Shown here piece after piece: positions 23,985 through 39,465 of a stretch of 64,000 bases of DNA. The DNA is taken from assembly GCF_006094275.1 (NCBI RefSeq), contig NZ_CP034412.1:2666001-2730000 (forward strand), given 5' to 3'. Below the pieces are notes generated by a model that saw only the letters and a list, made by a program, of their open reading frames with translations, did no database searches and was not told the DNA's origin. This stretch comes from Glutamicibacter creatinolyticus (lineage in GTDB: Bacteria; Actinomycetota; Actinomycetes; Actinomycetales; Micrococcaceae). Position numbers and translations under genes: made by a program. Position 1 is the stretch's first letter. Each line of letters begins with the position of its first letter.

Positions 23985-24015
23985 ATGCGGTCTCTTGCTG
24001 TATTTCTGAGCGTCG

Positions 24016-24258
24016 CTACGCTGCCTTGGGCTTGCCGCTGCGTGCCTCATGGCGCGCATGCTTCACCTGCGCGCGCAGCTCGTCGTTGCTCACTGCCGGA
24101 TCCACGCGCAACCCCAGCTGCTGGGCCTTGGCCAGCAGGTCCTCGCGGATCTCAGTGGCGTGCGTACGCCGGTAGCCCACGACCAGGACAGCACTGATGA
24201 TTCCCAGCGCCACAATGGTCAATAATGCGGTCAGTACCAACACGTCAAATTGCTGCAT
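24016..24258 (-). CDS. Small single-helix membrane protein
   Basis: 80 aa from ATG 24258, with AAGGAGG 8 nt upstream; the frame is open a little further but unsupported. A hydrophobic helix (about residues 5-27: VLVLTALLTIVALGIISAVL) is followed by a basic cytoplasmic tail containing EDLLAKAQQLGLRVDPAVSN, which resembles short SHOCT- or LEM-like helical pairs. Function unknown. A terminator hairpin lies just downstream, supporting a real transcription unit. Confidence 0.62.
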   Translation of the reverse strand: MQQFDVLVLTALLTIVALGIISAVLVVGYRRTHATEIREDLLAKAQQLGLRVDPAVSNDELRAQVKHARHEARSGKPKAA

Positions 24259-24729
24259 CTGCCATCCTCCTTCCAATCTCCCACTAGCTTCAACAACCGC
24301 AACCATCGATACATTCCCAAAACATGCCTAGTCACAACGGCAAGAGGGAAAACCCTGGAGCGGCAGAATCCAAAGAGGGGATTAACTATCCTAGCAAGAA
24401 TATTCGAATAAAGCATACTTTGTGTTCAATTACGCTTTGGAGACGGAGCTAGCCAGTACTGCACGGGAGCCGCCCAGGGAGGCGCCCCCGGCTTTTATCG
24501 GTAAACCACCGGCGAAGGAACGGTCAGGCTTCGACAGCTTGATGCCGGTTCACGGACGGGCTTCCTAACCCCTGGCGTCATGCCATCTTGTGAACGTCCT
24601 GGCCAGGCGGTAGCGTCCACAGTAGGTCCTGAAAGCCGGGACAACGAAGACCAACCACGTCGGAGGGCCGGCGGGCCCAGGGCCTGCCGCGAAGACAGAA
24701 ACTGTCGCCGATCACGAAGGAGTCGGATC
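24259..24729. other. Intergenic region without a supportable gene
   Basis: 471 nt between the divergent small membrane protein and the SDR gene. It includes an AT-rich stretch near 24380-24440 that may hold promoters, and a weak AGCCG/CGGCT stem with a following T-run near 24470-24497. No gene, tRNA or strong repeat was seen. Confidence 0.5.
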
Positions 24730-25416
24730 ATGGCTGAAAAGCGTCGTGTCGTAATTGTCGGGGGTCACGGAAAGGTGGCCCTGCTCGCTGCCCCGCGGCT
24801 CGTCCGGGAGGGGTTCGAGGTCCATTCGCTGATCCGCAATCCGGAACACATCACCGATATCCGTGCGGTGGGTGCCACCCCGGTGGAAGTTGATATTGAA
24901 ACCGCCAGTGCCGAAGAACTGGCCAAGACCTTTACCGGAGCCGATGCCGTCGTGTTCTCGGCCGGTGCTGGCGGCGGAGATCCCGAGCGCACCAACGCCG
25001 TGGACTATGAGGCGGCGGTGCGCACCATGCAAGCCGCCAAGCAGGCCGGAGTCAACCGCTATGTCATGGTCTCCTACGCGCGCGCCCTGGTGGACGTCGA
25101 CAACCTGGACCCGAAGGATTCGTTCTACCCGTATGCCAAGGCCAAGCACGACGCGGATGAGTACCTGCGCGGCACGAGCCTGGAGTACACCATCCTGGGG
25201 CCCGGCGCCCTGACCCTGGAGCCGGCTACAAAGAAGCTGCGCCTGGCCGACAGCCGCGGCCGCATTTCCGGGCACGAACCGGCGGGCACCGAGGGGCGCA
25301 CCGCCCGGGAAAACGTTGCGGAAATGATCGCGTACGTGCTGGCCCACAATGCCGGAATCCGCCAGACCGTGAATTTCTTTGACGGAGACACCCCGATGAG
25401 CAAGATCGTCTCATAA
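24730..25416 (+). CDS. NAD(P)-binding atypical SDR protein (YwnB/NmrA-like)
   Basis: 228 aa from ATG 24730, with AAGGAG 8 nt upstream. The nucleotide-binding start VVIVGGHGKVALLAAPRLVR (residues about 7-26) is followed by SLIRNPEH, the GADAVVFSAGAG strand, and SYARALV and YAKAKHDADEYL, where a YxxxK-like pair occurs. The C-terminus (LGPGALTLEP, GRTARENVAEMIAYVL) is typical of the NAD(P)H-binding/YwnB group. Such proteins act in redox or detoxification, or as sensors. Substrate unknown. Confidence 0.83.
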   Translation: MAEKRRVVIVGGHGKVALLAAPRLVREGFEVHSLIRNPEHITDIRAVGATPVEVDIETASAEELAKTFTGADAVVFSAGAGGGDPERTNAVDYEAAVRTMQAAKQAGVNRYVMVSYARALVDVDNLDPKDSFYPYAKAKHDADEYLRGTSLEYTILGPGALTLEPATKKLRLADSRGRISGHEPAGTEGRTARENVAEMIAYVLAHNAGIRQTVNFFDGDTPMSKIVS

Positions 25417-25460
25417 CGCTCAACGGACTTCAGTGGCCGGTTCCCAAGGCCTGAGCAACG

Positions 25461-25501
25461 AAACGTCCAGGGATGCACCGTGGTGCGGCCCTGGACGTTT
25501 T
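25461..25501. terminator. Bidirectional terminator with branched stem
   Basis: AAACGTCCAGGG (25461-25472) pairs perfectly with CCCTGGACGTTT (25489-25500), and the loop contains a second small stem GCACC/GGTGC. T-rich ends lie on both sides. It separates the convergent SDR and Lrp genes. Confidence 0.8.
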
Positions 25502-25512
25502 GCTGCGGGACT

Positions 25513-26001
25513 TCAGTATTCGGCGCTGCCGTGGCTGTGCTCAAAGACCAGTGAGGTCTGGGTGGTCGCCACGGCCGGGTTCGAGGACAAGTAGTCGAGC
25601 ACGAACTGGCGCACGTCCGCGGAGTTGCGCACCGCCACGTGCAGCACGAAATCGTCGGCACCGCCCAGGAAGAACAGCTGACGCACCCCGGGCTTGGCCT
25701 GCATGTCCTGGGCGAAGGTCGACATCAGGTGCCGGGCTCCGGGACGGATGCGAACGAAGATCAGCGCCTCCAGCTCTCGTCCGAGCACCTGCGGATCCAC
25801 CTCGATGGTGAACCTGGAAATCACGCCGGTGTCACGCAGCTGATTCAGCCGGGCCAGGCAGGTCGAGGGGGCGATGCCCAGCTCCTCGGCCAGGGAGTTG
25901 TTCGTGCGGCGGGAGTTCTCCGACAGCAGCCTGAGCAGTTTACGGTCCAGCTCATCGAGCTGCGCACGCTTGATCTCGGCCGAGACCGGATTATTCACCA
26001 C
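25513..26001 (-). CDS. Lrp/AsnC-family transcriptional regulator
   Basis: 162 aa from GTG 26001, preferred because GCAGG lies 7 nt upstream; a GTG at 26064 in the same frame would add 21 residues of low complexity. The helix-turn-helix (LDELDRKLLRLLSENSRR, LAEELGIAPSTCLARLNQL) and RAM domain (EALIFVRIRPGARH, VRQLFFLGGADDFVLHVAVR) are complete. It resembles actinobacterial Lrp proteins that act on amino acid genes. Target unknown. Confidence 0.86.
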   Translation of the reverse strand: MVNNPVSAEIKRAQLDELDRKLLRLLSENSRRTNNSLAEELGIAPSTCLARLNQLRDTGVISRFTIEVDPQVLGRELEALIFVRIRPGARHLMSTFAQDMQAKPGVRQLFFLGGADDFVLHVAVRNSADVRQFVLDYLSSNPAVATTQTSLVFEHSHGSAEY

Positions 26002-26098
26002 TGTCGCACCTGCTTTCCCCTGGTTCGGCACTTGGGCGCCGGCCTGCAGTGCCGATACCTGCACCTTTGACTGACGTTGTGATTCACCATCATAGGTC

Positions 26099-26581
26099 TC
26101 ACTTGATTTCTTCCGGGCCTATTACCCGGCGGGCGCGCTTCCTGCGACGCAGGATCAGCCACAGCACCAGCGCCACCAGCAGCACGATACCCACCAGCCA
26201 CGGCCAGTCCAGCGCGATCCACGCATAGATGAACGCCAAGCCCACGGTGGTGTACACCAACGCCCAGATCAGACAGCCGACAATCACCGCCGGCAGGTAG
26301 CGCCGCAGCGGCATCCGGGTGATTCCGGCGGTCGCGTTCACCGCCGTCTGCACCCCCACGGTCAAGAAGCTCAGCGGCACGGCGAAGACGCCCCACCGGG
26401 CCAGCAGGGCCTGGGACTTGAGGTAGATCGGGCCGCGCAGCACCCGCTGGAAACGCGTCTGCTTCACCCCCGCGGCGATGCTGCGCCCGATCCAGTAGGT
26501 GGTGTTCGCGCGGATCATCGCCCCAAGGAAGAAGAACAGGTACGTCACCAGGTAGGGCGCGTCCTCGATCCACTGCATCAT
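26099..26581 (-). CDS. DedA-like (VTT/SNARE-associated) membrane protein
   Basis: 160 aa, three or four helices, ending in a basic cluster LRRRKRARRVIGPEEIK. Segments such as ANTTYWIGRSIAAGVKQTRF, ALLARWGVFAVPLSFL and VNATAGITRMPLRRYLPAVI match the VTT domain (the Arg and Pro of the re-entrant loop are kept), though it is shorter than classic DedA proteins of about 200 aa. Its start lies 10 nt after the MFS stop, so it is last in the Rieske-ferredoxin unit. Lipid or undecaprenyl-phosphate flipping is the known family role. Confidence 0.75.
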   Translation of the reverse strand: MMQWIEDAPYLVTYLFFFLGAMIRANTTYWIGRSIAAGVKQTRFQRVLRGPIYLKSQALLARWGVFAVPLSFLTVGVQTAVNATAGITRMPLRRYLPAVIVGCLIWALVYTTVGLAFIYAWIALDWPWLVGIVLLVALVLWLILRRRKRARRVIGPEEIK

Positions 26582-26591
26582 GGCAACGCGC

Positions 26592-27839
26592 CTACGGGAC
26601 CATCTTGATGCGGCGCACCAGCAGCCCGCCGGCCACGCTGACCACTGCGGCGCAGATAAACAGGGTGGGGTACCCGCCCAGCCAGCTCACCGCGATCCAG
26701 GCGATCAGGGGCGCGAAGACCTGCGGCAGGGAGTTGGCGATGTTGATGACGCCCAGGTCCTTGGCCCGGGAATCGGCATGCGGCAGCACCTGGGTCAGCA
26801 GCGCGTAGTCCACCGCCAGGAAGGAGCCGAACCCCAGTCCGAGCAGCACCGCTCCGCCGATCGCCACCGGGAAGGAGGGGGCCACGGCCATGACCAGCGC
26901 CGCGGCGGCCACAATCAGGGAGGAGATCACCACGTAGCGCTTGCGCTTGCCGTCCCGGTCGGAGAGCTTGCCGGCCACCACCGAGGAGAGGATCACAAAA
27001 CCGGCGTAGATGCTGCTGAGCACCAGCACCCCGGCGGCCGGTTCGGGATGATTCAACCCATCCTGCAGGAAGTACAGCAGGTAGACCAGGATCAGCTGGC
27101 TGGAAAGGTATAGCAGGAAGCGGGTCAGCCAGGCCCAGCCGAAGTCCGGGTAGCGGACCGGGTTGATCCAGAAGCTGCGCAGGAAGCTGCCCCAGGCGAA
27201 CTCCTCGCGGGCGCTGGCCGGCAGCACCACGTCCTGGCGCAGCAGCACGAAGGGCACCGAGCACAGGGCAATCACCACCGCGACGATCGCGTAGCCGAAC
27301 ACCAGGTCGCTGGCGGCGACCATGCCGATGCCGGCGCCCACAAGGATACCCAGGGTCTGGGCCAGGGCGATCAGCCCACCCACGGTGCCGCGCTGGGCGA
27401 CCGGGACCTTGTCCGGTACGACGGCGAGCACCGCGGCCAGCGCGGCGTTGCCCGCGGCCTGCATCAGTGCCCAGCCCAGCACCAGCACCGTGACGGTCTG
27501 TGCGGTGGACATCAGCAGCAGGGCCAGCGCACCGCCCAGGGTACCGGCCACGATCCAGGGGATGCGGCGGCCAAAGCGGGAGGTGGTTCGGTCGCTGAGG
27601 GCGCCGAACAACGGGTTCGCGATCATCGAGACGACCGCGCCCACACCGGTCACCAGCGACAGGGTGGCGTTTTTCTGCTGCGGGGAGATCGCCTCGGAGT
27701 GCAGTCCCAGCAACACCTGGATGGGTGCGAAGAAGCCCACGTTGATGCCGATGTGCACAATCAGTACTGCGGCGATCCAGCCGACGCCCACGCGAGCGGT
27801 GGGGGTCCGGAGTGCTTCGACTGCCTTGTTAGATTCCAT
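26592..27839 (-). CDS. MFS transporter (GPH/SLC45-like)
   Basis: 415 aa from ATG 27839 (the frame extends upstream over the reductase gene's end). Twelve helices. The loop 2-3 motif PLFGALSDRTTSRFGRRIPW (residues about 65-84) and its counterpart KLSDRDGKRKR in the second half are typical of glycoside-pentoside-hexuronide type MFS carriers. It follows the ferredoxin reductase by 16 nt, so it may import the substrate of an oxygenase fed by that electron chain. Substrate unknown. Confidence 0.84.
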   Translation of the reverse strand: MESNKAVEALRTPTARVGVGWIAAVLIVHIGINVGFFAPIQVLLGLHSEAISPQQKNATLSLVTGVGAVVSMIANPLFGALSDRTTSRFGRRIPWIVAGTLGGALALLLMSTAQTVTVLVLGWALMQAAGNAALAAVLAVVPDKVPVAQRGTVGGLIALAQTLGILVGAGIGMVAASDLVFGYAIVAVVIALCSVPFVLLRQDVVLPASAREEFAWGSFLRSFWINPVRYPDFGWAWLTRFLLYLSSQLILVYLLYFLQDGLNHPEPAAGVLVLSSIYAGFVILSSVVAGKLSDRDGKRKRYVVISSLIVAAAALVMAVAPSFPVAIGGAVLLGLGFGSFLAVDYALLTQVLPHADSRAKDLGVINIANSLPQVFAPLIAWIAVSWLGGYPTLFICAAVVSVAGGLLVRRIKMVP

Positions 27840-27855
27840 GCTGCTGCGTACCCGC

Positions 27856-28992
27856 CTACCGTTTGCGACCCAGATTGCGCGGAGTGATCCCCGGGTCTTC
27901 CAGGTCGATGATGGGAGGGGTGATCTCCTGTTCAATCAATTTTCGCACGGCCCGGCCCATCAGCCCGCCATCGACCATGGAGGCGGCCACCAGGCGGTCC
28001 TGCCCATCCAGACCGAAGAGCACCTGAATCTTGCCCTGCCGGGTGTGGCGGGCCACGGTGCGCGCCACCGCGGTGAAGTCCCCGACGACTTCCACGTGGG
28101 ATTCGTGGCGGTCGGACCAGAACCAGGGCACCTTGCGCCGTGGGGCGCCGGTGCCCATGATCGTTGCGGCGGCGAGCGCAGCATCCTCATTGGCCCGGTC
28201 CCAGTGACGCAGGGGGCGGGCACCGGCCTCGCGGGCCACATCCCCGATCGCCAGCACCTGGGGGACGCTGGTGCGCATGCCCGCGTCCACGATGATGCCG
28301 TTGTGCGTTTCCAGGCCCAGGGTGTCGGCCAGGGTGAGGTTCGGCTCCACCCCGATCGCGGCCACCACGATGTCGGCCTCGATGCTCTCCTGATTGACCT
28401 CGACGCTGTTTTCGGTGATCCGTTCGGCCATCCCGGTCACCACCCGGATCCCGTTCAGCCGATGGTCCTCGTGCAGCTGGCGGGCCATGGGTTCGCCAAA
28501 GGCGGTGACCAGCGGCACCTGCTGGTTGCTGATCAAGGTGACCATGGCGCCGAACTGTCGGGCCGCGGCGGCGAATTCGGCCCCAATGAGCCCGGCACCG
28601 ATGACCACCACCTGGGTTCCGAAGGCGCCGAACGACAACTTCTGTGACAGGTCCTCGGCGTCCTTGGCCGTATGGATCACCCGGGCATGTTCGGCCCCGG
28701 GCACCTGCGGTCTCCTTGGTGTGGTTCCGGTGGCCAGCACCAGCCAGTCCTGTTCGGATTCCGGTGTCTGGACCTGGTCAATGCGCTGCGGCTGCAGCTG
28801 CACCGAATGCTCAATAAACCATGCAGGGGGTGCGAGGTTGACCCGTTCCAGCGTCTTGCTCAGGGGCGGGCGGTCGTAGGGCAGCCCCTCCGGATCGCTG
28901 AGCGTGATGTTTCCGGCATAGCCCGCCTGAACCAGCGTGTGGGCCAGGGAGAAACCGGCGACCCCGGCCCCGACGATATGCACTGAACCCAT
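27856..28992 (-). CDS. FAD-dependent ferredoxin reductase
   Basis: 378 aa. FAD-binding VHIVGAGVAGFSLAHTLVQA begins at residue 4, the NAD-binding VVVIGAGLIGAEFAAAARQF near 145-165, and AIGDVAREAG is the FAD-contact motif. RPPLSKT is the family signature of class III (ONFR-like) ferredoxin reductases of oxygenase systems. It directly adjoins the Rieske ferredoxin gene (stop and start are adjacent), making an NAD(P)H to FAD to 2Fe-2S chain. No terminal oxygenase gene is in the operon. Confidence 0.9.
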   Translation of the reverse strand: MGSVHIVGAGVAGFSLAHTLVQAGYAGNITLSDPEGLPYDRPPLSKTLERVNLAPPAWFIEHSVQLQPQRIDQVQTPESEQDWLVLATGTTPRRPQVPGAEHARVIHTAKDAEDLSQKLSFGAFGTQVVVIGAGLIGAEFAAAARQFGAMVTLISNQQVPLVTAFGEPMARQLHEDHRLNGIRVVTGMAERITENSVEVNQESIEADIVVAAIGVEPNLTLADTLGLETHNGIIVDAGMRTSVPQVLAIGDVAREAGARPLRHWDRANEDAALAAATIMGTGAPRRKVPWFWSDRHESHVEVVGDFTAVARTVARHTRQGKIQVLFGLDGQDRLVAASMVDGGLMGRAVRKLIEQEITPPIIDLEDPGITPRNLGRKR

Positions 28993-29310
28993 TTAGAAGT
29001 GCAGCTCCAGCATCCCGTCGATGACCTCCACCTTGTAGGTGCGCGCATCAACATAGGCTGGCAGGCACAGGACCTTGCCGGTCTTGAGGTTAAACCGGGA
29101 AGCGTGCAGCGGGCATTCGACTTCGCAGTCTTCAATCCATCCTTCGGACAGGGAGGCGACTTCGTGGGTGCACTCATCCTGCAGGGCGTAGAAGTTGCCG
29201 TCCTCGGCATGGAAGATGGCGATGTCCTCCTTGGCTCCGCTGTCATCGGATTCGACCTTCAGCGCCTCACCGACCGGAATCATGTCGACTGGACCCACCG
29301 TGTAGCTCAC
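28993..29310 (-). CDS. Rieske-type 2Fe-2S ferredoxin
   Basis: 105 aa from GTG 29310, preceded by GAAGGAG at 5 nt; the upstream in-frame extension lacks a ribosome site. The Rieske ligands are Cys47-X-His49 (CTHE) and Cys66-X2-His69 (CPLH), complete and with the usual spacing. Length matches soluble BphF-like ferredoxins. First gene of the operon with ferredoxin reductase, MFS transporter and VTT protein. Its electron acceptor must be encoded elsewhere. Confidence 0.92.
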   Translation of the reverse strand: MSYTVGPVDMIPVGEALKVESDDSGAKEDIAIFHAEDGNFYALQDECTHEVASLSEGWIEDCEVECPLHASRFNLKTGKVLCLPAYVDARTYKVEVIDGMLELHF

Positions 29311-29493
29311 TGCTTCTCCTTCGGTTCTAAAATTAGTCTTTCTCATCTTGTCACCTTCTGCGGACGCTCACGTAGTATCTCGGTCACGTCCTGCTGGCCG
29401 TAGCCCTGGGCCAGCGATTCCGGCTTTGGCGTAGGAAGCCCGAACTGAGCGGGTAAATCATGGATGGGGTGTGCGCCCGCCTAGAATGATTCC

Positions 29494-29943
29494 ATGCATG
29501 ACGAAGAACTTTTCATCACGGTGGAAAGAGAGTTCACCACGACCTTGTTGCGCGCCCGCCAGACCCTGATGCGGCGCGCCAAAGCGATCCACCCGGAGCT
29601 GCAGGCCCCTGGTTACCGAATCCTGTCGATCCTGGTGCATCACGATTCCCAGCAGCAGGGGTTCCTTGCCGAATCGCTGCAGCTGGACAAGGCCACGATT
29701 TCCCGGCTGGTCAAGCAGTTGGAGACCCAGGGACTGATCACCCGGACCGCGGATCCCAAGGATGGCCGGGCCCAGCTGGTGTCCATCACCGATCGGGCAC
29801 GTGACGCCTGGTATGTCAGCGGCCAGGCGCAGCGCCAGCGCCTGCGGGACAAGCTGGAGGACTGGTCCACTGAAGACGTGCAACGTTTCGCCGACCTGCT
29901 GCACCGTTTGAACGACAACTCCGACGCCGCCGACGCCGGTTAA
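29494..29943 (+). CDS. MarR-family regulator
   Basis: 149 aa. The winged helix (GYRILSILVHHDSQQQGFL, AESLQLDKATISRLVKQLET, GLITRTADPKDGRAQLVSIT) covers residues about 40-105, flanked by the dimerisation helices. It is divergent from the Rieske ferredoxin operon across 183 nt and is its likely regulator. MarR proteins often respond to phenolic compounds, which would suit an oxygenase electron chain; the ligand is not known. Confidence 0.86.
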   Translation: MHDEELFITVEREFTTTLLRARQTLMRRAKAIHPELQAPGYRILSILVHHDSQQQGFLAESLQLDKATISRLVKQLETQGLITRTADPKDGRAQLVSITDRARDAWYVSGQAQRQRLRDKLEDWSTEDVQRFADLLHRLNDNSDAADAG

Positions 29944-30146
29944 CCGCAGCCGCAGTCAAAGGGTGCGCAGCGTGATGCCGCTTGCCATGAGGGCCGGGGT
30001 GCAGCTGGAGGCAATACCTCATTGGTCCACCGCCGTGCTCCCCTATCGTCGGTAACCGTGGACAAGGCTAAGCCTTGATCTACCGATGGGGCGTGGGATG
30101 CAGCTCGCTGGTGGAAACGTAGGAACGTGATTTCGGGCAGGGGTAG

Positions 30147-30578
30147 GTGGCCGACCTTGAGCAGCAGCTGAACGAGCTGGTCAAAGCCAGCGAAGCGGCA
30201 CCCTTATTGACTGAGACCGGCTTCAAGGCAATCACGGCAGCGAAGTGCTTCGTCGCGTGGTCCCATGAAGGGCGAGTGCGCAATGAAGCGGCATTTGCCT
30301 GCCTGGCTGGCGTGAATCCAATTCCTGCGTCGTCGGGGAACACGACCCGGCACCGGCTTAATCGTGGCGGTGATCGGTCGTTGAATGCTGCCCTGCACTT
30401 AGCAGCGGTCACGCGTATGACACATGACAAAGAGACGCGAGTCTACGTTGAGAAGCGTCGAGCTGAGGGGAAAACTGATCGCGAGATCCGCCGATGCATC
30501 AAACGCTATCTGGTCCGTCGCATCTTCAAGATTTTCAGTGCTTCAGCAATGGTTGAAGAGGTTCCAGCTGCGGCTTGA
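30147..30578 (+). pseudogene. IS110-family transposase, C-terminal remnant
   Basis: 143 codons readable from GTG 30147. The C-terminal transposase_20 (IS116/IS110/IS902) domain is plain: VRNEAAFACLAGVNPIPASS, GNTTRHRLNRGGDRSLNAAL, and YVEKRRAEGKTDREIRRCIK. IS110 transposases are about 400 aa with an N-terminal DEDD RuvC-like catalytic domain; that half is missing, so the copy is dead. Upstream sequence back to 29944 has no transposase similarity, so the break is near 30.1 kb. Element ends cannot be placed. Confidence 0.87.
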
Positions 30579-30665
30579 CAGACATAGAAGAGTCAGCAGA
30601 CCCCTACCTGGTGGCAACAAAAAGTGGTCATGAACTTTTGCTCATGACCACTCGGTTGCTGTTGG

Positions 30666-31025
30666 TTAGATCGCTGCCTGGTACGGGATGCCCATGCCGA
30701 AGAGGACCTCGACCAGCTCTCGTGCGACTCCTTCACTGATGATCCAACCGCTCTCGACAGGCTTTGGCTCATCAACCTCAATAGGGTAGCCCGGTGTAGT
30801 CTCGATCATGCGATCGGCAACACGGCACGACGCCACATCGGCCAGAGCTTCAACAACACCGTTTAAGTCACCGGTGCCATTACTCGTTGCGGTAACCAGA
30901 CAGCCCTCATCCTGAACTGCCGGCGCGATAGTGATGCTCAGACCGCAGATGGGGTTGGGGCAGCCATCTCCGTTCGGGGTAGTGATGCCGAAGGTGCAGA
31001 ACGTGCAATCTGGGGAAGCGATCAT
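30666..31025 (-). CDS. Orphan protein with Cys-rich N-terminus
   Basis: 119 aa. The first 45 residues carry five Cys (DCTFCTFG, GCPNPICG, EGCLVT), and there is one more at SCRVAD. The rest is acidic and predicted alpha/beta, without signal peptide or membrane helix. I do not recognise the family. It lies between the transposase remnant and the palindrome-flanked secreted-protein gene, so it is probably accessory. The Cys pattern could bind a metal. Codon use is less GC-rich than in neighbouring core genes. Confidence 0.55.
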   Translation of the reverse strand: MIASPDCTFCTFGITTPNGDGCPNPICGLSITIAPAVQDEGCLVTATSNGTGDLNGVVEALADVASCRVADRMIETTPGYPIEVDEPKPVESGWIISEGVARELVEVLFGMGIPYQAAI

Positions 31026-31146
31026 GGGAATTGTCCTTTGGTTTTAGAGAGGCCGGTTTGCTTCTCACCTATCTCTATGCGCCGAGTCCGCCGATGGCTG
31101 GCACCGGGACGAGGCAGTCCCCACTTGACGTTGATTGGTCTCCAAG

Positions 31147-31167
31147 TTTTACGTTCTAAACGTAAAA
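31147..31167. repeat. 21-bp palindrome copy 1, upstream of the secreted-protein gene
   Basis: TTTTACGTT-CTA-AACGTAAAA, perfect 9-bp arms around 3 bp, 62 nt before the ATG at 31229. It is the same element as the seven copies at 31550-31917, so one copy precedes the gene and seven follow it. Confidence 0.85.
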
Positions 31168-31228
31168 GGTTGAGCGTTCTGGTAGCCTCGACAAGGACAT
31201 CGCAACCACGCACGAGAGAGGTATCCCG

Positions 31229-31537
31229 ATGACTGAAGTAGTCCAGAAGCACGAAAAGCCCAAGAAGATCCACAAGATCGGCTCAGTGGTTGCAGCAGCC
31301 TGCCTGGTGGTGGGAGCCAGCTTTGGCACCGCAGCGCCGGCTCAAGCGGCAACGAAGGTGCTGTCTGGTTCTTCCAAACATTATCTGTCTTGCTATCGTG
31401 CGTATTCCGACGCGTCCAGGCATCTCGTCAAAGCTGGATACACCTCGCAGGTGCACAACGCGACGTGCGGCAAAAAATGGACCTGGAGCAAGGGTTACAT
31501 TTATACATGGAAGATTACTGCCCGGACGCCACGCTGA
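31229..31537 (+). CDS. Small secreted protein of unknown function
   Basis: 102 aa. A basic start (KHEKPKKIHKIG), a hydrophobic core (SVVAAACLVVGASFGTAAPA) and an AQA-A cleavage site near residue 40 give a mature peptide of about 61 aa. It is basic and rich in Tyr, Trp and Ser, with two Cys (SCYRAY and ATCGKKW) that could form one disulphide. The pattern recalls small exported actinobacterial peptides, but I do not recognise a family and have no evidence of toxicity. GAGAGG precedes the ATG. It is framed by the palindromic repeats and lies in the accessory scar. Confidence 0.65.
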   Translation: MTEVVQKHEKPKKIHKIGSVVAAACLVVGASFGTAAPAQAATKVLSGSSKHYLSCYRAYSDASRHLVKAGYTSQVHNATCGKKWTWSKGYIYTWKITARTPR

Positions 31538-31549
31538 TCCACCTGAATC

Positions 31550-31917
31550 TTTTACGTTCATCACGTAAAAGCTAGCTCTGCGCAGTGCCGCGTCCTAAGC
31601 GTCGCTCTTCTTGCCGTCGAAGAGCGCTAGAGGGGTAGTCCTCAGGTTTTGCGTTAAGAACGTAAAAGCCTGCCCCGTAGTAGTGCCCCGAGTGGGCGCT
31701 GTTGCAGCGGAGATTTACGTTAACAACGTAAAAGCTATGGTCAGGCAGTCAATCCGCCTTTTACGTTAAGAACGTAAAACAGAGCTCTTCACCGGTGTCA
31801 TTTTTAGGTTAAAAACGTAAAATTCCAGCCAAGATCGGCCAATCCAACTCTTACGTTAAGAACGTAAAAGTTCAGACAGGCAGCAGTAGAGCCAGCTTTT
31901 GCGTTAAGAACGTAAAA
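31550..31917. repeat. Array of seven 21-bp palindromes with 22-76-nt spacers
   Basis: Copies start at 31550, 31647, 31713, 31759, 31802, 31849 and 31897, each TTTTACGTT-N3-AACGTAAAA or a near match. The right arm is invariant in six of seven (CACGTAAAA in the first), while the left arm varies (TTTTGCGTT twice, ATTTACGTT, TTTTAGGTT, TCTTACGTT). The 3-bp centre is AAG in four copies. The last five copies repeat every 43-48 bp. Some spacers share short words (CAGGCAG, CAATCC), so this looks like a degenerate directional tandem array. No protein-coding gene is supported over it. Function unknown; see findings. Confidence 0.9.
31603..31626. repeat. Hairpin in the longest spacer of the palindrome array
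   Basis: CGCTCTTC and GAAGAGCG pair perfectly over 8 bp around TTGCCGTC. It lies 66 nt downstream of the secreted-protein stop and may end that transcript, but no T-run follows. Confidence 0.45.
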
Positions 31918-32017
31918 ACTATCTCCTTGCGCGTTTTGGCGTCCCTGTATCTTGGCCGCGCCAACGATCAGCATGCCGACCACCATACAGATGATCGACA
32001 TGCCAATCAAAAAACTC

Positions 32018-32233
32018 CTAGGCTGCTTCTGCCATGGCGGGTCCAGCGCAAGCTTTAGCAAAGCCAGCAGCCACACCAGCTTCCCAACCAACCGATGCAG
32101 CATCGCGATAGAGCAGATTCGCAAAGGCCATACGCAGGGAAGGGATGCTCCTATCCAGCATTGGGGCAGCCCGCTCCAACCAAGCACGGAGCTCAGCAAC
32201 ACCTGCAACCGGTTGAGGCAACTCGCCAGCCAT
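32018..32233 (-). CDS. Possible small protein or gene fragment of foreign character
   Basis: 71 aa from ATG 32233 (a further in-frame ATG at 32260 exists). The peptide (MAGELPQPVAGVAELRAWLE..., then NLLYRDAASVGWEAGVAAGF) reads like a soluble helical protein, but codons are rich in GCT, GTT and GGT, unlike the GCC/CTG-rich neighbours. No ribosome site is seen before either start, so it may be the tail of a gene whose front is lost. No family recognised. It ends close to the OsmC-like remnant on the other strand. Confidence 0.35.
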   Translation of the reverse strand: MAGELPQPVAGVAELRAWLERAAPMLDRSIPSLRMAFANLLYRDAASVGWEAGVAAGFAKACAGPAMAEAA

Positions 32234-32262
32234 GGAATAAAGCGGGGCACAGCATCTCATCT

Positions 32263-32382
32263 GAAATCGTGACCGAACGCTATCTTGAGCTGCAGCGGGT
32301 GGTCGATGAGCACTGCCCGGTGCTGGACGTTTTCAAGAACCCGGTGCCGATGAGCGTCAACGTCCTCGTGTCCGGACGCTAG
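32263..32382 (+). pseudogene. OsmC/Ohr-family protein, C-terminal remnant
   Basis: Only the last 39 codons survive: TERYLELQRVVDEHCPVLDV then FKNPVPMSVNVLV. The HCPV-(x4)-NPVP pattern is the C-terminal part of OsmC-type peroxidase/hydroperoxide-resistance proteins, including the second catalytic Cys. The upstream frame is unrelated and of accessory character, and no N-terminal half was found at the other end of the accessory segment. The breakpoint near 32260 marks the right edge of the insertion or deletion. Confidence 0.72.
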
Positions 32383-32450
32383 CCAGGGCCTTGTCCGGTC
32401 CGCCTGCCAGCGCGTAGCCTGAGGCCAGGCGAGCATTGGAGGAATGCAGC

Positions 32451-33608
32451 ATGTCAGCATCAGCCGCGCCGGACTGGGACCCACGGTCCCCGGAGGTGCT
32501 AGAGGACCAGATTGCCGCCTACGACCGCCTCCGGGCCCAGTGCCCCGTCGCCCACAGCGAGTTCCTCGGCTACTCGGTGCTGGGGCACGAAGATGCGCTG
32601 CGGGTGCTGCATGATCCGGAAACGTTCAGCAACGCCGTCTCCCAGCGGCTGACCGTGCCCAATGGCATGGATCCACCGGAGCACACCGTCTACCGGGCGG
32701 TCAATGACCGCTACTTCACCCCGGAGCTGATGCGCCGCTTCGAGCCGGTGTGCCGGGAAGTGGCGCTCAGCCTGCTCCGGGAGCTGCCGCTGCACGAACC
32801 GATCGACGTGATTGAGCAGCTGGCCGAGGTCTATGCACTGCGCGCCCAGAGCGCGTTCCTGGGGTGGCCGCGGGAGCTGGAGGAACCGCTGCGCGCCTGG
32901 ACCGCGAAGAACCGCACGGCCACCTTGGCCCAGGACCGACCGGCGATGAAGGCCATCGCCGTGGAGTTTGACGGATACATTCGCCAGCTGCTCCAGCAGC
33001 GGCGCGAGGCCGGCCACCGCGCGCCGAAGGACCTGACGACCCAACTGCTGCATGAGCAGGTGTACGGCCGGCCGTTGAACGACGAGGAGCTGGTCAGCCT
33101 GTTGCGCAACTGGACGGTCGGTGAGCTGAGCACCATTGCCGCCAGTGTCGGGATCCTGGCCAATTTCCTGGCCACCCACCCGGAAATCCAGACCCGTCTG
33201 CGCGAGGATCCCTCGCTGATCGGGGCGGCCAACGACGAGATCCTGCGGGCGCACGCCCCGCTGATTGCCAACCGCCGGGTGGCCACCCGGGATGTGGAGG
33301 TCAACGGGCGGCTGATCCCGGCCGGTGAGCGGGTGACCGTGGTGTGGGCTTCGGCCAACCGCGATGAGAGCGTCTTCGGGGACCCGGATGAGTTCCGCCT
33401 GGACCGGGATCCGGGGCTGAACCTGCTGTACGGGGCGGGCATCCACATCTGCCCGGGGGCGCCGCTGGCACGGCTGGAGTTGCGGGTGCTGGTCGAAGAA
33501 CTGCTCAAGCGCACCAGCAGCATTACCCCGGCCCCCGGCGCCCAGGCACCGGCCCGGGCCCACTACCCCGGCAGCGGGTACTCCACGCTGCCGCTGCAGC
33601 TGGACTGA
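32451..33608 (+). CDS. Cytochrome P450 (bacterial class I type)
   Basis: 385 aa from ATG 32451 with GGAGGAA 6-12 nt upstream. The haem loop LLYGAGIHICPGAPLAR places the axial ligand at Cys334. The K-helix ExxR is Glu263-Arg266 (NDEILRAHAP), and the meander is intact (ANRDESVFGDPDEFRLDRDP). The I-helix reads RNWTVGELSTIAASVG (about 219-234) in place of the usual AGxDTT, a variant I recall from one subgroup of soluble actinobacterial P450s. DPPEHTVYR is the C-helix heme-propionate motif. No ferredoxin is adjacent; the Rieske chain at 28-29 kb is not the usual partner. Substrate unknown. Confidence 0.9.
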   Translation: MSASAAPDWDPRSPEVLEDQIAAYDRLRAQCPVAHSEFLGYSVLGHEDALRVLHDPETFSNAVSQRLTVPNGMDPPEHTVYRAVNDRYFTPELMRRFEPVCREVALSLLRELPLHEPIDVIEQLAEVYALRAQSAFLGWPRELEEPLRAWTAKNRTATLAQDRPAMKAIAVEFDGYIRQLLQQRREAGHRAPKDLTTQLLHEQVYGRPLNDEELVSLLRNWTVGELSTIAASVGILANFLATHPEIQTRLREDPSLIGAANDEILRAHAPLIANRRVATRDVEVNGRLIPAGERVTVVWASANRDESVFGDPDEFRLDRDPGLNLLYGAGIHICPGAPLARLELRVLVEELLKRTSSITPAPGAQAPARAHYPGSGYSTLPLQLD

Positions 33609-33627
33609 ACCGGCCGCGAGCCACAAA

Positions 33628-33676
33628 CCGCCAGCAGGCGCCGTCCCCCTTGGTGGGGGACGGCGCCTGCTGGCGG
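33628..33676. terminator. Very long perfect hairpin between convergent genes
   Basis: Two 22-nt arms (33628-33649 and 33655-33676) are perfectly complementary around a 5-nt loop TTGGT. It separates the P450 from the convergent FadR-type regulator. There is no T-run, but ACAAA on the left gives a short TTTGT on the minus strand. Confidence 0.75.
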
Positions 33677-33705
33677 TAAGGAAGCTGCCGGGTCCGGAAC
33701 CCGGC

Positions 33706-34416
33706 CTAGAAGCGGGTCTGCTGGTAGAACCAGTTGATGTGTTCCTCCAGCATGTGCGCGGCCCGTTCCCGGTTGTTGTTGGCAAACGCGCGGTGGATTG
33801 CCTTGTGCTGGCGGCGCAGCACCTTCACGATCGGCTGCCAGGTCGCATCGTCCGGGATGGCCGAGGCCACGTAGTCGCTGATCGAGTGGCGCAGGGATTC
33901 CATCATCGCCTCCACCACCGAGTTGCCGGCCATCGAGGAGAGCAGCACATGGAACTCGGCGTCAATGCGGTGGAACTCGTCGCGGGAAAGCTGCGGGTCA
34001 TCCATGCGCATGATCAACACCGCGGTGCGCTCGATCACCTGTTGGGCGTGGATCGGGTCGCGCGGGGTCATCTGCGCCGCCCAGGTCTCCAGCAGGATCC
34101 GGGACTCCACGATCTCCCGAACCTGGATGCCCTTGGCCGCCACGTGCAGGCGCAGCGCCTGGGACAGCCCGGCCGAGGGGTTGGAGATGATCACCGCCCC
34201 GGAGTTCGGGCCCGAACCGGTGGAGGTGCGCACCACGCCCATCACGTCCAGAATGCGGATTGCGTCGCGCACCGAGGCCCGGGAGATCCCATGGGCTTCG
34301 GCCAGCGCCCGCTCCCCGGGCAGCTGATCGCCCAGATTCAGCTTCCCGGTTCGCAGGTCACGCTCAATGGCCTCCAGGACCACCTGATAGGCACGCGGAG
34401 TTGGCTTTGTAGACAT
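33706..34416 (-). CDS. FadR/GntR-family regulator of the lactate genes (LldR-like)
   Basis: 236 aa. The GntR winged helix (LNLGDQLPGERALAEAHGIS, RASVRDAIRILDVMGVVRTS) is followed by an FCD domain (about residues 85-230) with metal/ligand residues in FHRIDAEFHVLLSSMAGNS and RRQHKAIHRAFANN. It lies 45 nt downstream of lldP on the same strand. Three copies of TGGTCAGACCA in the lldP-lutA intergenic region agree with the TNGTNNNACNA operator known for LldR/PdhR-type regulators, so it very likely represses both units, relieved by lactate. Confidence 0.88.
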   Translation of the reverse strand: MSTKPTPRAYQVVLEAIERDLRTGKLNLGDQLPGERALAEAHGISRASVRDAIRILDVMGVVRTSTGSGPNSGAVIISNPSAGLSQALRLHVAAKGIQVREIVESRILLETWAAQMTPRDPIHAQQVIERTAVLIMRMDDPQLSRDEFHRIDAEFHVLLSSMAGNSVVEAMMESLRHSISDYVASAIPDDATWQPIVKVLRRQHKAIHRAFANNNRERAAHMLEEHINWFYQQTRF

Positions 34417-34461
34417 CAGAACCCATTTTAGTGTGTTGCGCCGTTGGCCAGGGCCACGGGC

Positions 34462-36141
34462 CTAGTGCGGCAGCATCCAGCTGAGCACCGGGGTGGACTG
34501 CAGGTAGACCAGCACGCACAGCACCAGCAGCATGCCCACCGACCAGCCGGCCACCTTCTTCAGGATCACCGACTCTTGGCCTTCCATCTTCACCGCGGTC
34601 GCCGCGATGGCCAGGTTCTGCGGGGAGATCAGCTTGCCGACCACGCCGCCGGAGGTGTTGGCGGCCACCAGCAGGGTCGGGTCGATGCCCGCGTTGACCC
34701 CGGCGGTCTGCTGCAGCTTGGCGAACAGGGCGTTCGCGCTGGTGTCCGAGCCGGTCACCGCGGTGCCGATCCAGCCCAGGATGGGCGAGAGGAAGGCGAA
34801 CGCGCCACCGGCCCCGGCCATCCAGGTGCCGATGGTGATGGTCTGCCCGGACAGGTTCATCACGTAGGCCAGGCCCAGCACCGAGAGGATGGTCAGCGCC
34901 GCAAAGCGCATGTTGTACACGGTGCGCCCGATCTCGGCGATCGCGTTGCCCACGGCGATCGGGTACTTGCCCCCGTCATCGAACTTGGAGTACACGATGG
35001 CCACGATCAGCCCGGTGATCAGCAGCAGGGTGCCGGGGGTGGAGAGCCAGTTGAAATTGTAGATCGTCGAGGAGACCGCCTCGCCGTTGCCGTCCACGAT
35101 GTTCCCGTGCAGCCCCGGCCAGCCGAACTTCACGTCGGTGGCGGCCAGCGCCGCCGGGATGTCCACGCCCAGGCGCCACAGCTTGGCCACACCGAAGATC
35201 AGGATCACCAGCACATAGGGGAACAACGCCATCCAGGTCGCCCCCGGGCGCAGGTTGCGGTTCGCGTCCACCGGCTTGGCCAGCGCCTCGGGGGTGAGGA
35301 TGCGCTCGCGGGCCTCGTCGGCGCCCTTGGGCTTCCACACCTGCAAGAAGAGCACCGCAACGCCCAGGCCCACCAGCGAGGCGACGATGTCGGTCAGTTC
35401 ATAGGAGAAGTAGGTCGCGCACAGCCACTGGGCGATGGCGAAGGAAATGCCGATCACCAGGGTCACCGGAAGGGTCTGGCGCATGCTGCGCCACCCGGCG
35501 ATGACCAGCACCAGCACGGTGGGGACGAACAGGGCCAGCACCGGGGACTGGTGTCCGACGGTGGCGCCGATCTCCGCGGCCGGGATCCCGGTCAGCGCAC
35601 CGGCGGTGGTGATCGGGATGGCCACGGCGCCAAAGGCCACCGGGGCGGTGTTGGCGATCAGCACGGCACTGGCCGCTCGCAGCGGGGAGAGTCCCAGGGC
35701 CAGCAGCATGGTGGCGGTGATCGCCACCGGGGCACCGAACCCGGCCAGCGCCTCCAGCAGGCCGCCGAAGCAGAACGCGATCAGCACCGTCTGGATGCGC
35801 ACATCCCCGCCGCCGATCACGTCAAAGACCCGGCGCAGGTCCTCGAAGCGCCCGGAGACCACGGTGACCTGGTAGAGCCAGATCGCCATGACCACGATCC
35901 ACACGATGGGGAAGGCGCCGAACACCACGCCCATCACCCCGGAGTTGATGGCCAGCCCCACCGGCATCTGCCAGCCAAAGATCGCCACGATGATTGCGAC
36001 CAAAAGGGAGCTGAGTCCGGCATAGTGGGCCTTGACCTTAACTACGGCCAGCATGACAAAGAAGGTGAGCAGCGGGATCAGGGCGACCAGCGCGGAGATG
36101 GCCACGCTGCCGGCGATCGGCTCGGTTGATGGTGTAAACAC
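34462..36141 (-). CDS. lldP: L-lactate permease
   Basis: 559 aa, about 12-14 membrane helices, full length for LldP/LctP. Typical segments are FGGLLEALAGFGAPVAITAT, GHQSPVLALFVPTVLV, GWIGTAVTGSDTSANALF and NTSGGVVGKLISPQNLAIAA. It imports L-lactate (also glycolate) with protons. The gene is divergent from lutABC, with the three operators between them, and is followed by the regulator gene. Confidence 0.94.
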   Translation of the reverse strand: MFTPSTEPIAGSVAISALVALIPLLTFFVMLAVVKVKAHYAGLSSLLVAIIVAIFGWQMPVGLAINSGVMGVVFGAFPIVWIVVMAIWLYQVTVVSGRFEDLRRVFDVIGGGDVRIQTVLIAFCFGGLLEALAGFGAPVAITATMLLALGLSPLRAASAVLIANTAPVAFGAVAIPITTAGALTGIPAAEIGATVGHQSPVLALFVPTVLVLVIAGWRSMRQTLPVTLVIGISFAIAQWLCATYFSYELTDIVASLVGLGVAVLFLQVWKPKGADEARERILTPEALAKPVDANRNLRPGATWMALFPYVLVILIFGVAKLWRLGVDIPAALAATDVKFGWPGLHGNIVDGNGEAVSSTIYNFNWLSTPGTLLLITGLIVAIVYSKFDDGGKYPIAVGNAIAEIGRTVYNMRFAALTILSVLGLAYVMNLSGQTITIGTWMAGAGGAFAFLSPILGWIGTAVTGSDTSANALFAKLQQTAGVNAGIDPTLLVAANTSGGVVGKLISPQNLAIAATAVKMEGQESVILKKVAGWSVGMLLVLCVLVYLQSTPVLSWMLPH

Positions 36142-36164
36142 GGTGTGGGCGTCCTTACTAGTGA

Positions 36165-36265
36165 TGGTCAGACCACATATGGTCAGACCACCGATAATAC
36201 AAGGTGAGTGCTATCACAACAAGTCTTGACGGGATTCGAAAGATGCGCCTAGTATGGTCAGACCA
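36165..36265. promoter_or_regulatory. Three perfect TGGTCAGACCA operators of the lactate genes
   Basis: TGGTCAGACCA occurs at 36165-36175, 36180-36190 and 36255-36265 in the 145-bp region between lldP and lutA. The first two are 15 bp apart, close to lldP; the third is 22 nt before the lutA ATG. Each is a palindrome (TGGTC-A-GACCA), matching the LldR/FadR operator consensus TNGTNNNACNA. One site per unit plus an extra at lldP suggests joint control. Confidence 0.9.
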
Positions 36266-36286
36266 CACAGCGAGAGAGTTATTCTT

Positions 36287-37051
36287 ATGCGTATTGCACT
36301 CTTTGCCACCTGCATCGTCGACGCGATGTACCCGGAAACGGCCAAGTCCACGGTGAAAATCCTGGAACGCCTTGGCCATGAGGTGATCTTCCCGGCCGGC
36401 CAGGCCTGCTGCGGGCAGATGCACATGAATTCCGGCTACATGCCCGAGGCGCTGCCGGTGGTTGAAAACCATGTCCAGGCCTTCGAGCGCGCCGACTACG
36501 ACGTGGCCGTGGCACCCTCCGGATCCTGCGTCTCCTCCCTGAAGCACCAGCACGGCATGCTGGCCGAGCGGCTGGGCAAGCCGGACCTGAAGTCCCGCGC
36601 CGCGGAGGTCGCCGGACGCACCTACGAGCTCTCGCAGCTGCTCACCGACGTCTTGGGCATCACCAACGCCGCCGAACAGCTGGGCAGCTACTTCCCGCAC
36701 AGCGTCACCTACCACCCTTCCTGCCACGGCATGCGCCTGCTGAAGCTGGGCGACCGGCAGCTGGACCTGCTCAAGTCGGTGGGTGGGATCACCGTGGAGG
36801 AGCTGCCCGAGGCAGACCAGTGCTGCGGCTTTGGCGGCACCTTCTCCATCAAGAACTCCGATGTCTCCTCGGCGATGCTGCAGGACAAGGCCCGCAACAT
36901 CGCCTCCACCGGCGCCTCGCTGTGCGTCGGCGGGGACGTCTCCTGCCTGATGCACATCGGTGGCGGGCTCTCACGCAATGGCCAGAAGCCGGGCACCATG
37001 CACCTGGCCAACATCCTGGCCAGCACGAAGGAAGAGATGGTGGCACTGTGA
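36287..37051 (+). CDS. lutA: Lactate utilisation protein A (CCG-domain iron-sulphur subunit)
   Basis: 254 aa from ATG 36287; the frame is open 11 codons upstream but that overlaps the operator. The two cysteine-rich CCG domains are visible: ATCIVDAMYP with ACCGQM (Cys41-42), and HPSCHGMRLL with DQCCGFGGTFS. LutABC oxidises L-lactate to pyruvate. The stop overlaps the lutB start by 4 nt (GTGA). Confidence 0.92.
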   Translation: MRIALFATCIVDAMYPETAKSTVKILERLGHEVIFPAGQACCGQMHMNSGYMPEALPVVENHVQAFERADYDVAVAPSGSCVSSLKHQHGMLAERLGKPDLKSRAAEVAGRTYELSQLLTDVLGITNAAEQLGSYFPHSVTYHPSCHGMRLLKLGDRQLDLLKSVGGITVEELPEADQCCGFGGTFSIKNSDVSSAMLQDKARNIASTGASLCVGGDVSCLMHIGGGLSRNGQKPGTMHLANILASTKEEMVAL

Positions 37052-38520
37052 GTCAGGTATTTTTGGGCATGCCGGCGGCCGGGGAAGGCAACCTGTTTGC
37101 CGATGAGTCCTTCCCGAAGGCCGCCCACCACGAGCTGCAGAACACCCAGCTGCGCGCGAACCTGCGCCACGCCACCCACTCCATCCGCGACAAGCGGCTG
37201 CGCGTGGTCGGCGAGCTGCCGGACTGGGAGTCGCTGCGCAACGCCGGGGAGGCGATCAAGAACCAGGCGATGGCACGGCTGGATGAGCGCCTGGAGGAGT
37301 TCGAGAAGAACTTCACCGCCCGCGGCGGCATCATCCACTGGGCCCGCGACGCGGCCGAGGCGAACCAGATCGTCACCGACCTGATCAAGCAGACCGGCTC
37401 CACCGAGGTGGTCAAGGTCAAGTCCATGGCCACCCAGGAAATCGGCTTGAACGAGCACCTGGAAACCCAGGGCATCGCCGCCTTCGAAACCGACCTGGCC
37501 GAACTGATCGTGCAGCTGGACCACGACAAGCCCAGCCACATCCTGGTCCCGGCGATCCACAAGAACCGCACCGAGGTGCGCGACATCTTCCTGCGCGAGA
37601 TGCCGGATGTGGATCCGAACCTAACCAATGAGCCGGCCAAGCTGGCCGAGGCCTCGCGCAAGCACCTGCGCAAGAAGTTCCTCTCCACCAAGGTGGCGAT
37701 CTCCGGGGCCAACTTCGCCCTGGCGGACACCGGCACCCTGGGCGTGGTGGAGTCCGAGGGCAACGGGCGCATGTGCCTGACCCTGCCCGAAACCCTGATC
37801 ACCGTGATGGGGATCGAGAAGGTGCTGCCCTCCTGGCAGGACATCGAGGTCTTCATGCAGCTGCTGCCGCGCTCCTCCACCGGGGAGCGGATGAACCCGT
37901 ACACCTCGCTGTGGACCGGGGTCACCGAGAACGACGGGCCGCAGAACGTGCACCTGGTGCTGATGGACAACGGGCGCACCCGGGCGCTGTCGGACCGCTT
38001 CGGGCGCAGCGCGCTGAACTGCATCCGCTGCTCGGCGTGCATGAACGTCTGCCCGGTGTACGAACGCACCGGCGGGCACGCCTACGGCTCGACCTACCCG
38101 GGCCCGATCGGCGCGATCCTCTCCCCGCTGCTGACCGGCATCGAGGCCGAGGAGAACAACTCCCTGCCCTACGCCTCCTCACTGTGCGGCGCCTGCTTTG
38201 ACGCCTGCCCGGTGAAGATCAACATCCCCGAAATCCTGGTGCACCTGCGCGGGGAGGACGTGGATTCCCAGCGCGGCAAGAAGCTGCTGCCCACCCAGAT
38301 GGACCTGCTGATGAAGGGCGGCTCCTGGGCGCTGGGCAAGGGCCGGAACCTGGACCTGCTGGAAAAGGGGCTGCCGCTGGGCAAGCTGGCCGCCGGCCGG
38401 GACAAGAAGATCAAGCGCCTGCCGGGCATCGCGGCGGGCTGGACCGCCAGCCGCGACATCCCGGCACCGCCAAGCAAGTCCTTCCGCGACTGGTGGAAGA
38501 GCGAGAAGGAGGGCAAATGA
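37048..38520 (+). CDS. lutB: Lactate utilisation protein B (ferredoxin-like iron-sulphur subunit)
   Basis: 490 aa from GTG 37048, which overlaps the lutA stop; an open frame further upstream is inside lutA and was not used. The LUD domain (about residues 70-300) carries VKVKSMATQEIGLNEHLE. Two 4Fe-4S motifs follow: Cys325-X2-Cys328-X2-Cys331-X3-Cys335 and Cys380-X2-Cys383-X3-Cys387. C-terminal LutB-type domain complete. ATGA overlap with lutC. Confidence 0.93.
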   Translation: MSQVFLGMPAAGEGNLFADESFPKAAHHELQNTQLRANLRHATHSIRDKRLRVVGELPDWESLRNAGEAIKNQAMARLDERLEEFEKNFTARGGIIHWARDAAEANQIVTDLIKQTGSTEVVKVKSMATQEIGLNEHLETQGIAAFETDLAELIVQLDHDKPSHILVPAIHKNRTEVRDIFLREMPDVDPNLTNEPAKLAEASRKHLRKKFLSTKVAISGANFALADTGTLGVVESEGNGRMCLTLPETLITVMGIEKVLPSWQDIEVFMQLLPRSSTGERMNPYTSLWTGVTENDGPQNVHLVLMDNGRTRALSDRFGRSALNCIRCSACMNVCPVYERTGGHAYGSTYPGPIGAILSPLLTGIEAEENNSLPYASSLCGACFDACPVKINIPEILVHLRGEDVDSQRGKKLLPTQMDLLMKGGSWALGKGRNLDLLEKGLPLGKLAAGRDKKIKRLPGIAAGWTASRDIPAPPSKSFRDWWKSEKEGK

Positions 38521-39149
38521 GCGCCAAGGAAGAGATCCTGGGCCGGATCCGCACCGCACTGGCCGATAACCCGCACGTGGAACCGGTGGTGCGCGACTAC
38601 CGCACCACCTCGCAGCTCAGCGAAACCGAGGTCATCGAACTGCTGGTGGACCGCCTGGTGGACTACAAGGCCGGGGTGGATGTCATCGAGGCCGAGCAGA
38701 TCGCCACCCACGTCGCCGCGAAGCTGGCCACCGCCCGCTCGGTGGTCTACCCGCACGGGCTGGACACCGGTTGGCTTCAGCAGCTGCCCGAGTCCATTGA
38801 GCGGCGCATCGACGCCCCGGGCCACGCCCTGGACATCCCGGTGCTCGATGAGACCAGCGCCGTGGTGACCTCCTCGGCGGTGTCCATCGCCGAGTCCGGC
38901 ACCATCATCCTGGACGGCGAACCCGACCAGGGCCGGCGCGCGATCTCCCTGGTGCCCGATCACCACGTGTGCATCGTGCCGGTCTCCACGATCGTGCAGC
39001 TGCTGCCCGAGGCCATGCCGCGCATGGACGTGACCCGCCCGCAAACCTGGATTTCCGGGCCGAGCGCCACCAGCGACATCGAGCTGGAGCGCGTCGAGGG
39101 CGTGCATGGGCCGCGCACCCTGGATGTGCTGATCGTGCGCGGGCTATAG
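38517..39149 (+). CDS. lutC: Lactate utilisation protein C (LUD domain)
   Basis: 210 aa from ATG 38517. A single LUD domain: EEILGRIRTALADN at the start, DETSAVVTSSAVSIAESGTI and the signature near PQTWISGPSATSDIELERVE-GVHGP at the end. It completes the LutABC lactate oxidation complex. The operon ends at a strong hairpin 20 nt downstream. Confidence 0.92.
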   Translation: MSAKEEILGRIRTALADNPHVEPVVRDYRTTSQLSETEVIELLVDRLVDYKAGVDVIEAEQIATHVAAKLATARSVVYPHGLDTGWLQQLPESIERRIDAPGHALDIPVLDETSAVVTSSAVSIAESGTIILDGEPDQGRRAISLVPDHHVCIVPVSTIVQLLPEAMPRMDVTRPQTWISGPSATSDIELERVEGVHGPRTLDVLIVRGL

Positions 39150-39168
39150 ACCCCTGCGCCCCCATTCG

Positions 39169-39213
39169 ATGGCCGGTTTCCCCGTTCCAAAATCTCCAAG
39201 GGAAGCCGGCCAT
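39169..39213 (+). terminator. Hairpin terminator of lutABC
   Basis: ATGGCCGGTTTCCC (39169-39182) pairs with GGGAAGCCGGCCAT (39200-39213) over 14 positions with one G-U, loop 17 nt, followed by TGCTTGT. Confidence 0.7.
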
Positions 39214-39323
39214 TGCTTGTACGACCGCCCAATAGGCTGCGCATCGCGCGCAGAAGATTCGGCTGCTCGGGAATGCTGGATGCTCCCCCTACCCCTGGTC
39301 GCGACATGCTCCACTATGAGGGA

Positions 39324-39446
39324 TTATTGTGTCCTTTTGCCTCGGTAAATTGACGAATGCACGGTTTCTTCGGTGCCGAACTGGGCGAACTTCCGGTTGT
39401 TGTCCTCAGCCTGCTTAAAGCCCCGCAGGAGTGCGATGGCTCCAAC
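39324..39446 (-). pseudogene. Possible C-terminal gene remnant downstream of the SdhA-like gene
   Basis: Forty codons on the minus strand read VGAIALLRGFKQAEDNNRKF then AQFGTEETVHSSIYRGKRTQ and a TAA, with codon choice that looks coding. There is no start codon at its head; the frame runs back out of phase into the end of the SdhA-like gene. This suggests the last part of a lost gene. I do not recognise the family. The remaining sequence 39214-39323 shows nothing. Confidence 0.35.
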
Positions 39447-39465
39447 GGTCTCTAAACTCGCGGGA

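Follow-up and report, generated by a model that had tools for sequence, protein, structure and literature searches.

What does an array of eight near-identical palindromes do around a single small gene in Glutamicibacter creatinolyticus? We analysed a window of 64,000 nucleotides from this genome (NZ_CP034412.1, positions 2,666,001–2,730,000; feature coordinates below count from its first letter), in which a 21-bp dyad of the form TTTTACGTT-N3-AACGTAAAA occurs eight times within 771 bp (31147–31917). Two copies are perfect and six have one mismatch to the consensus. Copy 1 (31147–31167; perfect, centre CTA) lies upstream of an ORF of 102 aa (31229–31537, + strand), and the other seven lie downstream, beginning 12 bp 3′ of the stop codon with copy 2 (31550–31570; one right-arm mismatch). 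Copies 3 (31647–31667), 4 (31713–31733), 6 (31802–31822), 7 (31849–31869) and 8 (31897–31917) each carry one left-arm mismatch, and copy 5 (31759–31779) is perfect. Successive starts are 403, 97, 66, 46, 43, 47 and 48 bp apart, irregular over the first three gaps and regular (43–48 bp) over the last five copies; these spacings do not correspond to whole helical turns. An earlier note on this DNA had given the same count, the same one-before and seven-after placement and the same pitch for the last five copies, all of which we recover. The array is a real, non-random feature, new in sequence and setting: 100 dinucleotide shuffles of the window contained zero matches to the dyad at up to three mismatches.

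The DNA within and between the copies says more about what is being kept. On one strand, the three-base centres read AAG in four copies, AAC or AAA in two and CTA or CAT in two; going by these centres, copies 3–8 may be of common origin, with flanks that are unlike. Downstream of copy 2 the spacers measure 22–76 bp, and the one ORF occupies the interval between copies 1 and 2. The spacers are unrelated to each other and host-like in GC (0.54–0.71), and near-perfect dyads with free centres, set among such spacers, indicate that the site itself is under selection. The copy 2–3 spacer contains a GC-richer inverted repeat, CGCTCTTC / GAAGAGCG (8 bp; 31602–31629). The note had pointed to an imbalance between the arms and to words that the spacers share. 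Its arm counts are correct, with departures from consensus in the left arm of 5/8 copies and the right arm of 1/8, but a 5-versus-1 split is within chance (two-sided binomial p = 0.22). The shared words do not survive comparison either, being no more than shuffled spacers give across the six spacers after copy 2 (P = 0.11, 0.19 and 0.29 for lengths 5, 6 and 7).

How far the array extends beyond this locus can be answered directly. In the whole genome (3,309,128 bases, one contig) the eight array copies are the only matches to the dyad at up to three mismatches, which bears out the claim that it occurs nowhere else and leaves no random scatter of the 21-mer. A dispersed mobile palindrome of REP type is rejected, every copy in the 3.31 Mb falling inside one 771-bp stretch. 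Scanning 169,907 bases for repeated dyads (perfect arms of 7, gap 0–8, three or more copies in 1.5 kb) likewise turned up this array as the sole cluster; the scan took in the window and loci L151–L158, among which L152 duplicates part of the window. At up to two mismatches, 17 congeneric genomes lack the palindrome altogether; across the family (394 genomes besides this one), three hold the dyad as one lone two-mismatch site each, and none holds an array. The earlier note had named a single occurrence of the array as grounds for refutation, and by that standard the array is not a recurring system in the genomes searched.

Wider searches gave the same picture. A half-site scan of one genome per species (84,980 species), which requires three consecutive right arms, each exact, with gaps of 22–50 bp, misses diverged arrays and may omit records very near the window's own genome, returned 73 stretches, and the dyad was absent from the DNA read around every one of them (73/73). 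The viral half-site scan returned four stretches, with half-sites arranged as dyads in 0/4, one of which (L195) holds an unrelated CGTT-N3-AACG core; the 19-mer was present in 44 viral stretches, as a single site in each. BLAST with the array (E up to 10) found nothing similar in 72,556 plasmid records. Against phages it gave four matches, each of 21 bases and at chance level (E about 1), and no others. Our literature search on operator arrays and actinobacterial plasmid centromeres returned nothing. Seen once in everything searched, the array is at present a lead rather than a system.

The surroundings of the array form a foreign-looking patch. A C-terminal fragment of an IS110-family transposase (30147–30578, + strand; PF02371, 5.8e-17) marks its left edge and a 3′ remnant of osmC (32272–32382, + strand) its right edge, confirming the location between an IS110 remnant and a broken osmC that had been proposed; between the two lie an ORF of 119 aa, the array and the 102-aa ORF. 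GC3 is 0.64–0.65 for the two ORFs (0.65 for that of 119 aa) and 0.61 for the IS fragment, and stands at 0.81 for the neighbouring MarR gene, 0.88 for the P450 gene and 0.82 for the osmC remnant. The low GC3 of the patch fits foreign DNA, and we infer that the patch arrived with a mobile element. In two related stretches, whose ORFs were read, MarR is followed by an SNF2-type helicase gene of 1074 aa on the opposite strand and then by an intact osmC; by BLAST, MarR is kept in 6/6 related stretches, the osmC end in 5/6 and GntR in 4/6. The helicase gene, conserved in the MarR–osmC interval of relatives, is missing here (29944–32271), and its sole match in the genome is a paralog, a 37% identical protein about 2.2 Mb distant. 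A cytochrome-P450-like gene (32436–33608, read from translation) takes the place of two dehydrogenase genes found between osmC and GntR in two relatives, and ORFs resembling ferredoxins and reductases are found to the left of MarR. The DNA of the insert is not repeated elsewhere in the genome.

No candidate for a protein acting on the palindromes emerges from these neighbours. The ORF list (at least 80 aa, positions 24000–40000) and Pfam give no recombinase ORF between the IS110 fragment and osmC, and Pfam recognises no Par, integrase, Cas or DNA-binding domain in the six ORFs of the patch. The regulators on either side are unlikely binders because MarR (6/6 related stretches) and GntR (4/6) are conserved in relatives while the palindrome is found in 0/17 congeners. 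A CRISPR array was rejected as well: 6/8 repeats vary, the spacers after copy 2 run from 22 to 76 bp and there is no Cas domain in the six patch ORFs.

The gene enclosed by the array encodes a small protein of secreted type, predicted by reading to open with a signal-peptide-like segment, leaving a mature part of 62 residues that includes two cysteines. It has no convincing family score in Pfam, NCBIfam, PHROG or PADLOC (best PHROG match, E 0.33), and the predicted model of its mature part is of low confidence (61.8). Among 390 family genomes there is one clear relative, in genome G323 (62% identical, E 1.4e-32; 59% identity over the pairwise alignment). Lying 0.9–10 kb from that relative are a resolvase at 0.9 kb, a TetR gene at 1.6 kb, a TrwC relaxase at about 5 kb and a ParB-domain gene at about 9 kb. 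Samples of the order (347 genomes) and class (374 genomes) added weak matches only. We did not count G027 (31%, within a 512-aa frame), G119 (44%, partial coverage) or three further genomes (E 3.5e-5 to 6.9e-4, in frames of 230–1101 aa) as relatives. Querying with the G323 protein gave 33 genomes besides that of the window (E 1.5e-4 to 0.01), likewise not counted; the matches listed fall mostly within longer or stop-broken frames, and a match of similar length (L165) overlaps a 387-aa ORF on the opposite strand.

The 119-aa ORF (30666–31025, − strand), a cysteine-containing orphan, points away from the 102-aa gene, and copy 1 lies in the interval that separates the two. Directly 3′ of it is a terminator-like hairpin of 14 pairs followed by a T run (30622–30653, − strand), an arrangement that speaks for a genuine gene; this hairpin is the longest of three terminator-like sites observed, against 1.8 expected from shuffles. 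Across 245 family genomes it matches just one other sequence, weakly (G227, 31%, E 5.2e-4; not counted as a relative), and plasmids, phages, viral contigs and PHROGs hold no match. The 119-aa protein was considered as the palindrome binder and set aside, neither family nor fold lending support (single-sequence model of mean pLDDT 55, no PDB match).

Copy 1 is placed where an operator would be expected to work. A possible −10 box, TAGCCT (31183–31188, + strand), begins 15 nt 3′ of this copy, and a 17-bp spacer counted back from it would put the −35 at 31160–31165, within the right arm. TANNNT boxes are common by chance, and a consensus promoter scan, which asks for a −35 hexamer, did not have the TAGCCT promoter among the sites that it listed. 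The gene in G323 has an unrelated palindrome with perfect 9-bp arms, GTTCTGCGA-N9-TCGCAGAAC, in the same place, ending 14 nt before a TAGTCT, and at both loci the −35 would fall inside the right arm. Perfect dyads of this class (9-bp arms, gap up to 9) occur in 0.4% of Markov 120-mers and in 53/2487 real 120-bp windows (2%, some from the array itself), a background against which the support for an operator is moderate. Judged by its position, copy 1 is likely the promoter operator of the 102-aa gene, as a candidate; most array copies lie away from every proposed promoter. In G323, a genome-wide search at up to three mismatches finds its palindrome a single time and in no array, indicating that the array is not a fixed or conserved companion of the gene. 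The product of the TetR gene (L151, 11739–12404) could bind the palindrome there.

The explanation that we put forward, and to which we give an even chance, is that the array serves a single DNA-binding protein, a homodimer from a mobile element, as its set of binding sites, with copy 1 providing promoter control and the seven other sites forming a cluster. A piece of that element, array included, would now be lodged in the chromosome. Each 9-N3-9 dyad would take one dimer, and a dimer on copy 1, over the −35 region, would switch the 102-aa gene, with repression the more likely outcome. The seven downstream sites would form a loading or silencing cluster on which many dimers gather and become locally concentrated, in the manner of the KorB operators and F-plasmid parS. 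The binder has no recognisable gene in the patch and may have been lost or be encoded elsewhere. In a further variant, which we regard as a long shot, the seven sites would act as a sponge that soaks up the element's binder, and the 102-aa protein, which may have an antibacterial or contact function, would be released when the binder runs low, for example through loss of the element or a change in its copy number.

Several other readings assign the same sites a different purpose. The array might be the remnant of a plasmid centromere, whose main role was segregation through a ParB-type protein and whose effect on the gene is incidental. The five copies at 43–48 bp do resemble the parS of the F plasmid as the available text of PMC6238139 describes it, and the relative of the 102-aa gene is close to ParB-domain and TrwC relaxase genes. 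Yet the patch is without ParA or ParB, the dyad alone is conserved and not a whole repeat unit, 72,556 plasmid records hold no similar array at E up to 10, and one copy stands 403 bp away, beyond a gene; a primary role in segregation thus seems doubtful to us. A prophage could instead have left dispersed dyads like those of Cluster O mycobacteriophages, their function perhaps non-regulatory. The plan is shared, with inverted arms, a three-base A/T-rich centre and most sites away from promoters (PMC4351075, in the portion available), and the sites are absent elsewhere in the host genome. We consider a phage origin improbable, given that the same portion reports 34 sites genome-wide in Corndog against eight in 771 bp here, that neither the DNA, the 102-aa and 119-aa proteins, PHROGs nor viral contigs provide a phage match, and that the 44 viral stretches with the 19-mer have one site each.

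The seven downstream copies could also act in RNA, as 3′ untranslated hairpins with a protective or regulatory effect on the transcript of the 102-aa gene. All copies are able to form a stem of 8–9 pairs (one interrupted by a mismatch) at −2.9 to −8.2 kcal/mol, and copy 2 begins 12 bp past the stop codon; such a role is nonetheless very unlikely, for copy 1 is upstream of the gene, 0/6 arm changes are compensated (by reading, G-U pairing tolerates two, and the others disrupt or weaken their pair), and no Rfam family was found, only a chance match at E 0.29. Recombination sites of attC, dif or Xer type, or a cassette array, acting without a local recombinase, would account for repeated sites in constant orientation (by the AAG centre, 4/8) with unlike DNA between them. 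Arm asymmetry at chance in an almost perfect dyad identifies no weak arm, however; spacers of 22–76 bp are far too short for genes and there is one gene only; the patch has no recombinase-like ORF or integrase match, and the genome no second locus. On arm statistics, spacer length and the absent recombinase we reject this reading, which we find scarcely credible. Of the three options in the earlier note, the segregation-type region and the multi-copy operator remain the best readings, and the recombination or cassette option falls with the asymmetry within chance, the spacers at chance and the lack of a recombinase ORF.

Should binding by a mobile-element protein prove true, the 21-mer would serve as bait for a new DNA-binding protein of actinobacterial mobile elements and as a marker of the elements themselves, and a small secreted protein from an almost unsampled family would be tied to plasmid-type control.

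New as it is in sequence, the array is probably ordinary in kind, a set of clustered mobile-element binding sites. The RK2 KorB operator (OB) is a shorter dyad of different sequence. In the available part of PMC11790492, the OB sites are likewise several sites for one ParB-family dimer that combines promoter control with a wider role; they differ in being distributed and in acting over distance by CTP-dependent sliding, and no KorB is found here. The parS (sopC) of the F plasmid comprises twelve 43-bp tandem repeats with ten 16-bp inverted repeats (PMC6238139, from an excerpt), a cluster of inverted repeats whose 43-bp steps resemble the 43–48 bp of five copies here; there, the repeated unit is the full 43 bp, with sopAB adjoining, whereas here the 21-bp dyad alone repeats and no ParA or ParB was found (PMC6238139 and PMC8465637, both as excerpted). 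The dyads of Cluster O mycobacteriophages also have inverted arms around three bases, an A/T-rich centre and many copies. These are 17-bp TGTTCGG-N3-CCGAACA sites, 34 of them across the Corndog genome, for which the authors judged a regulatory role unlikely and the binder was not known (PMC4351075, in part); their arms are the 7-bp TGTTCGG/CCGAACA, in contrast to the 9-bp TTTTACGTT/AACGTAAAA of the eight copies in 771 bp here. Cluster A mycobacteriophage stoperators similarly offer many sites to one phage protein, beyond promoters, but according to the accessible text of PMC9283540 each is an asymmetric site for a monomeric repressor, whereas the sites described here are near-perfect dyads.
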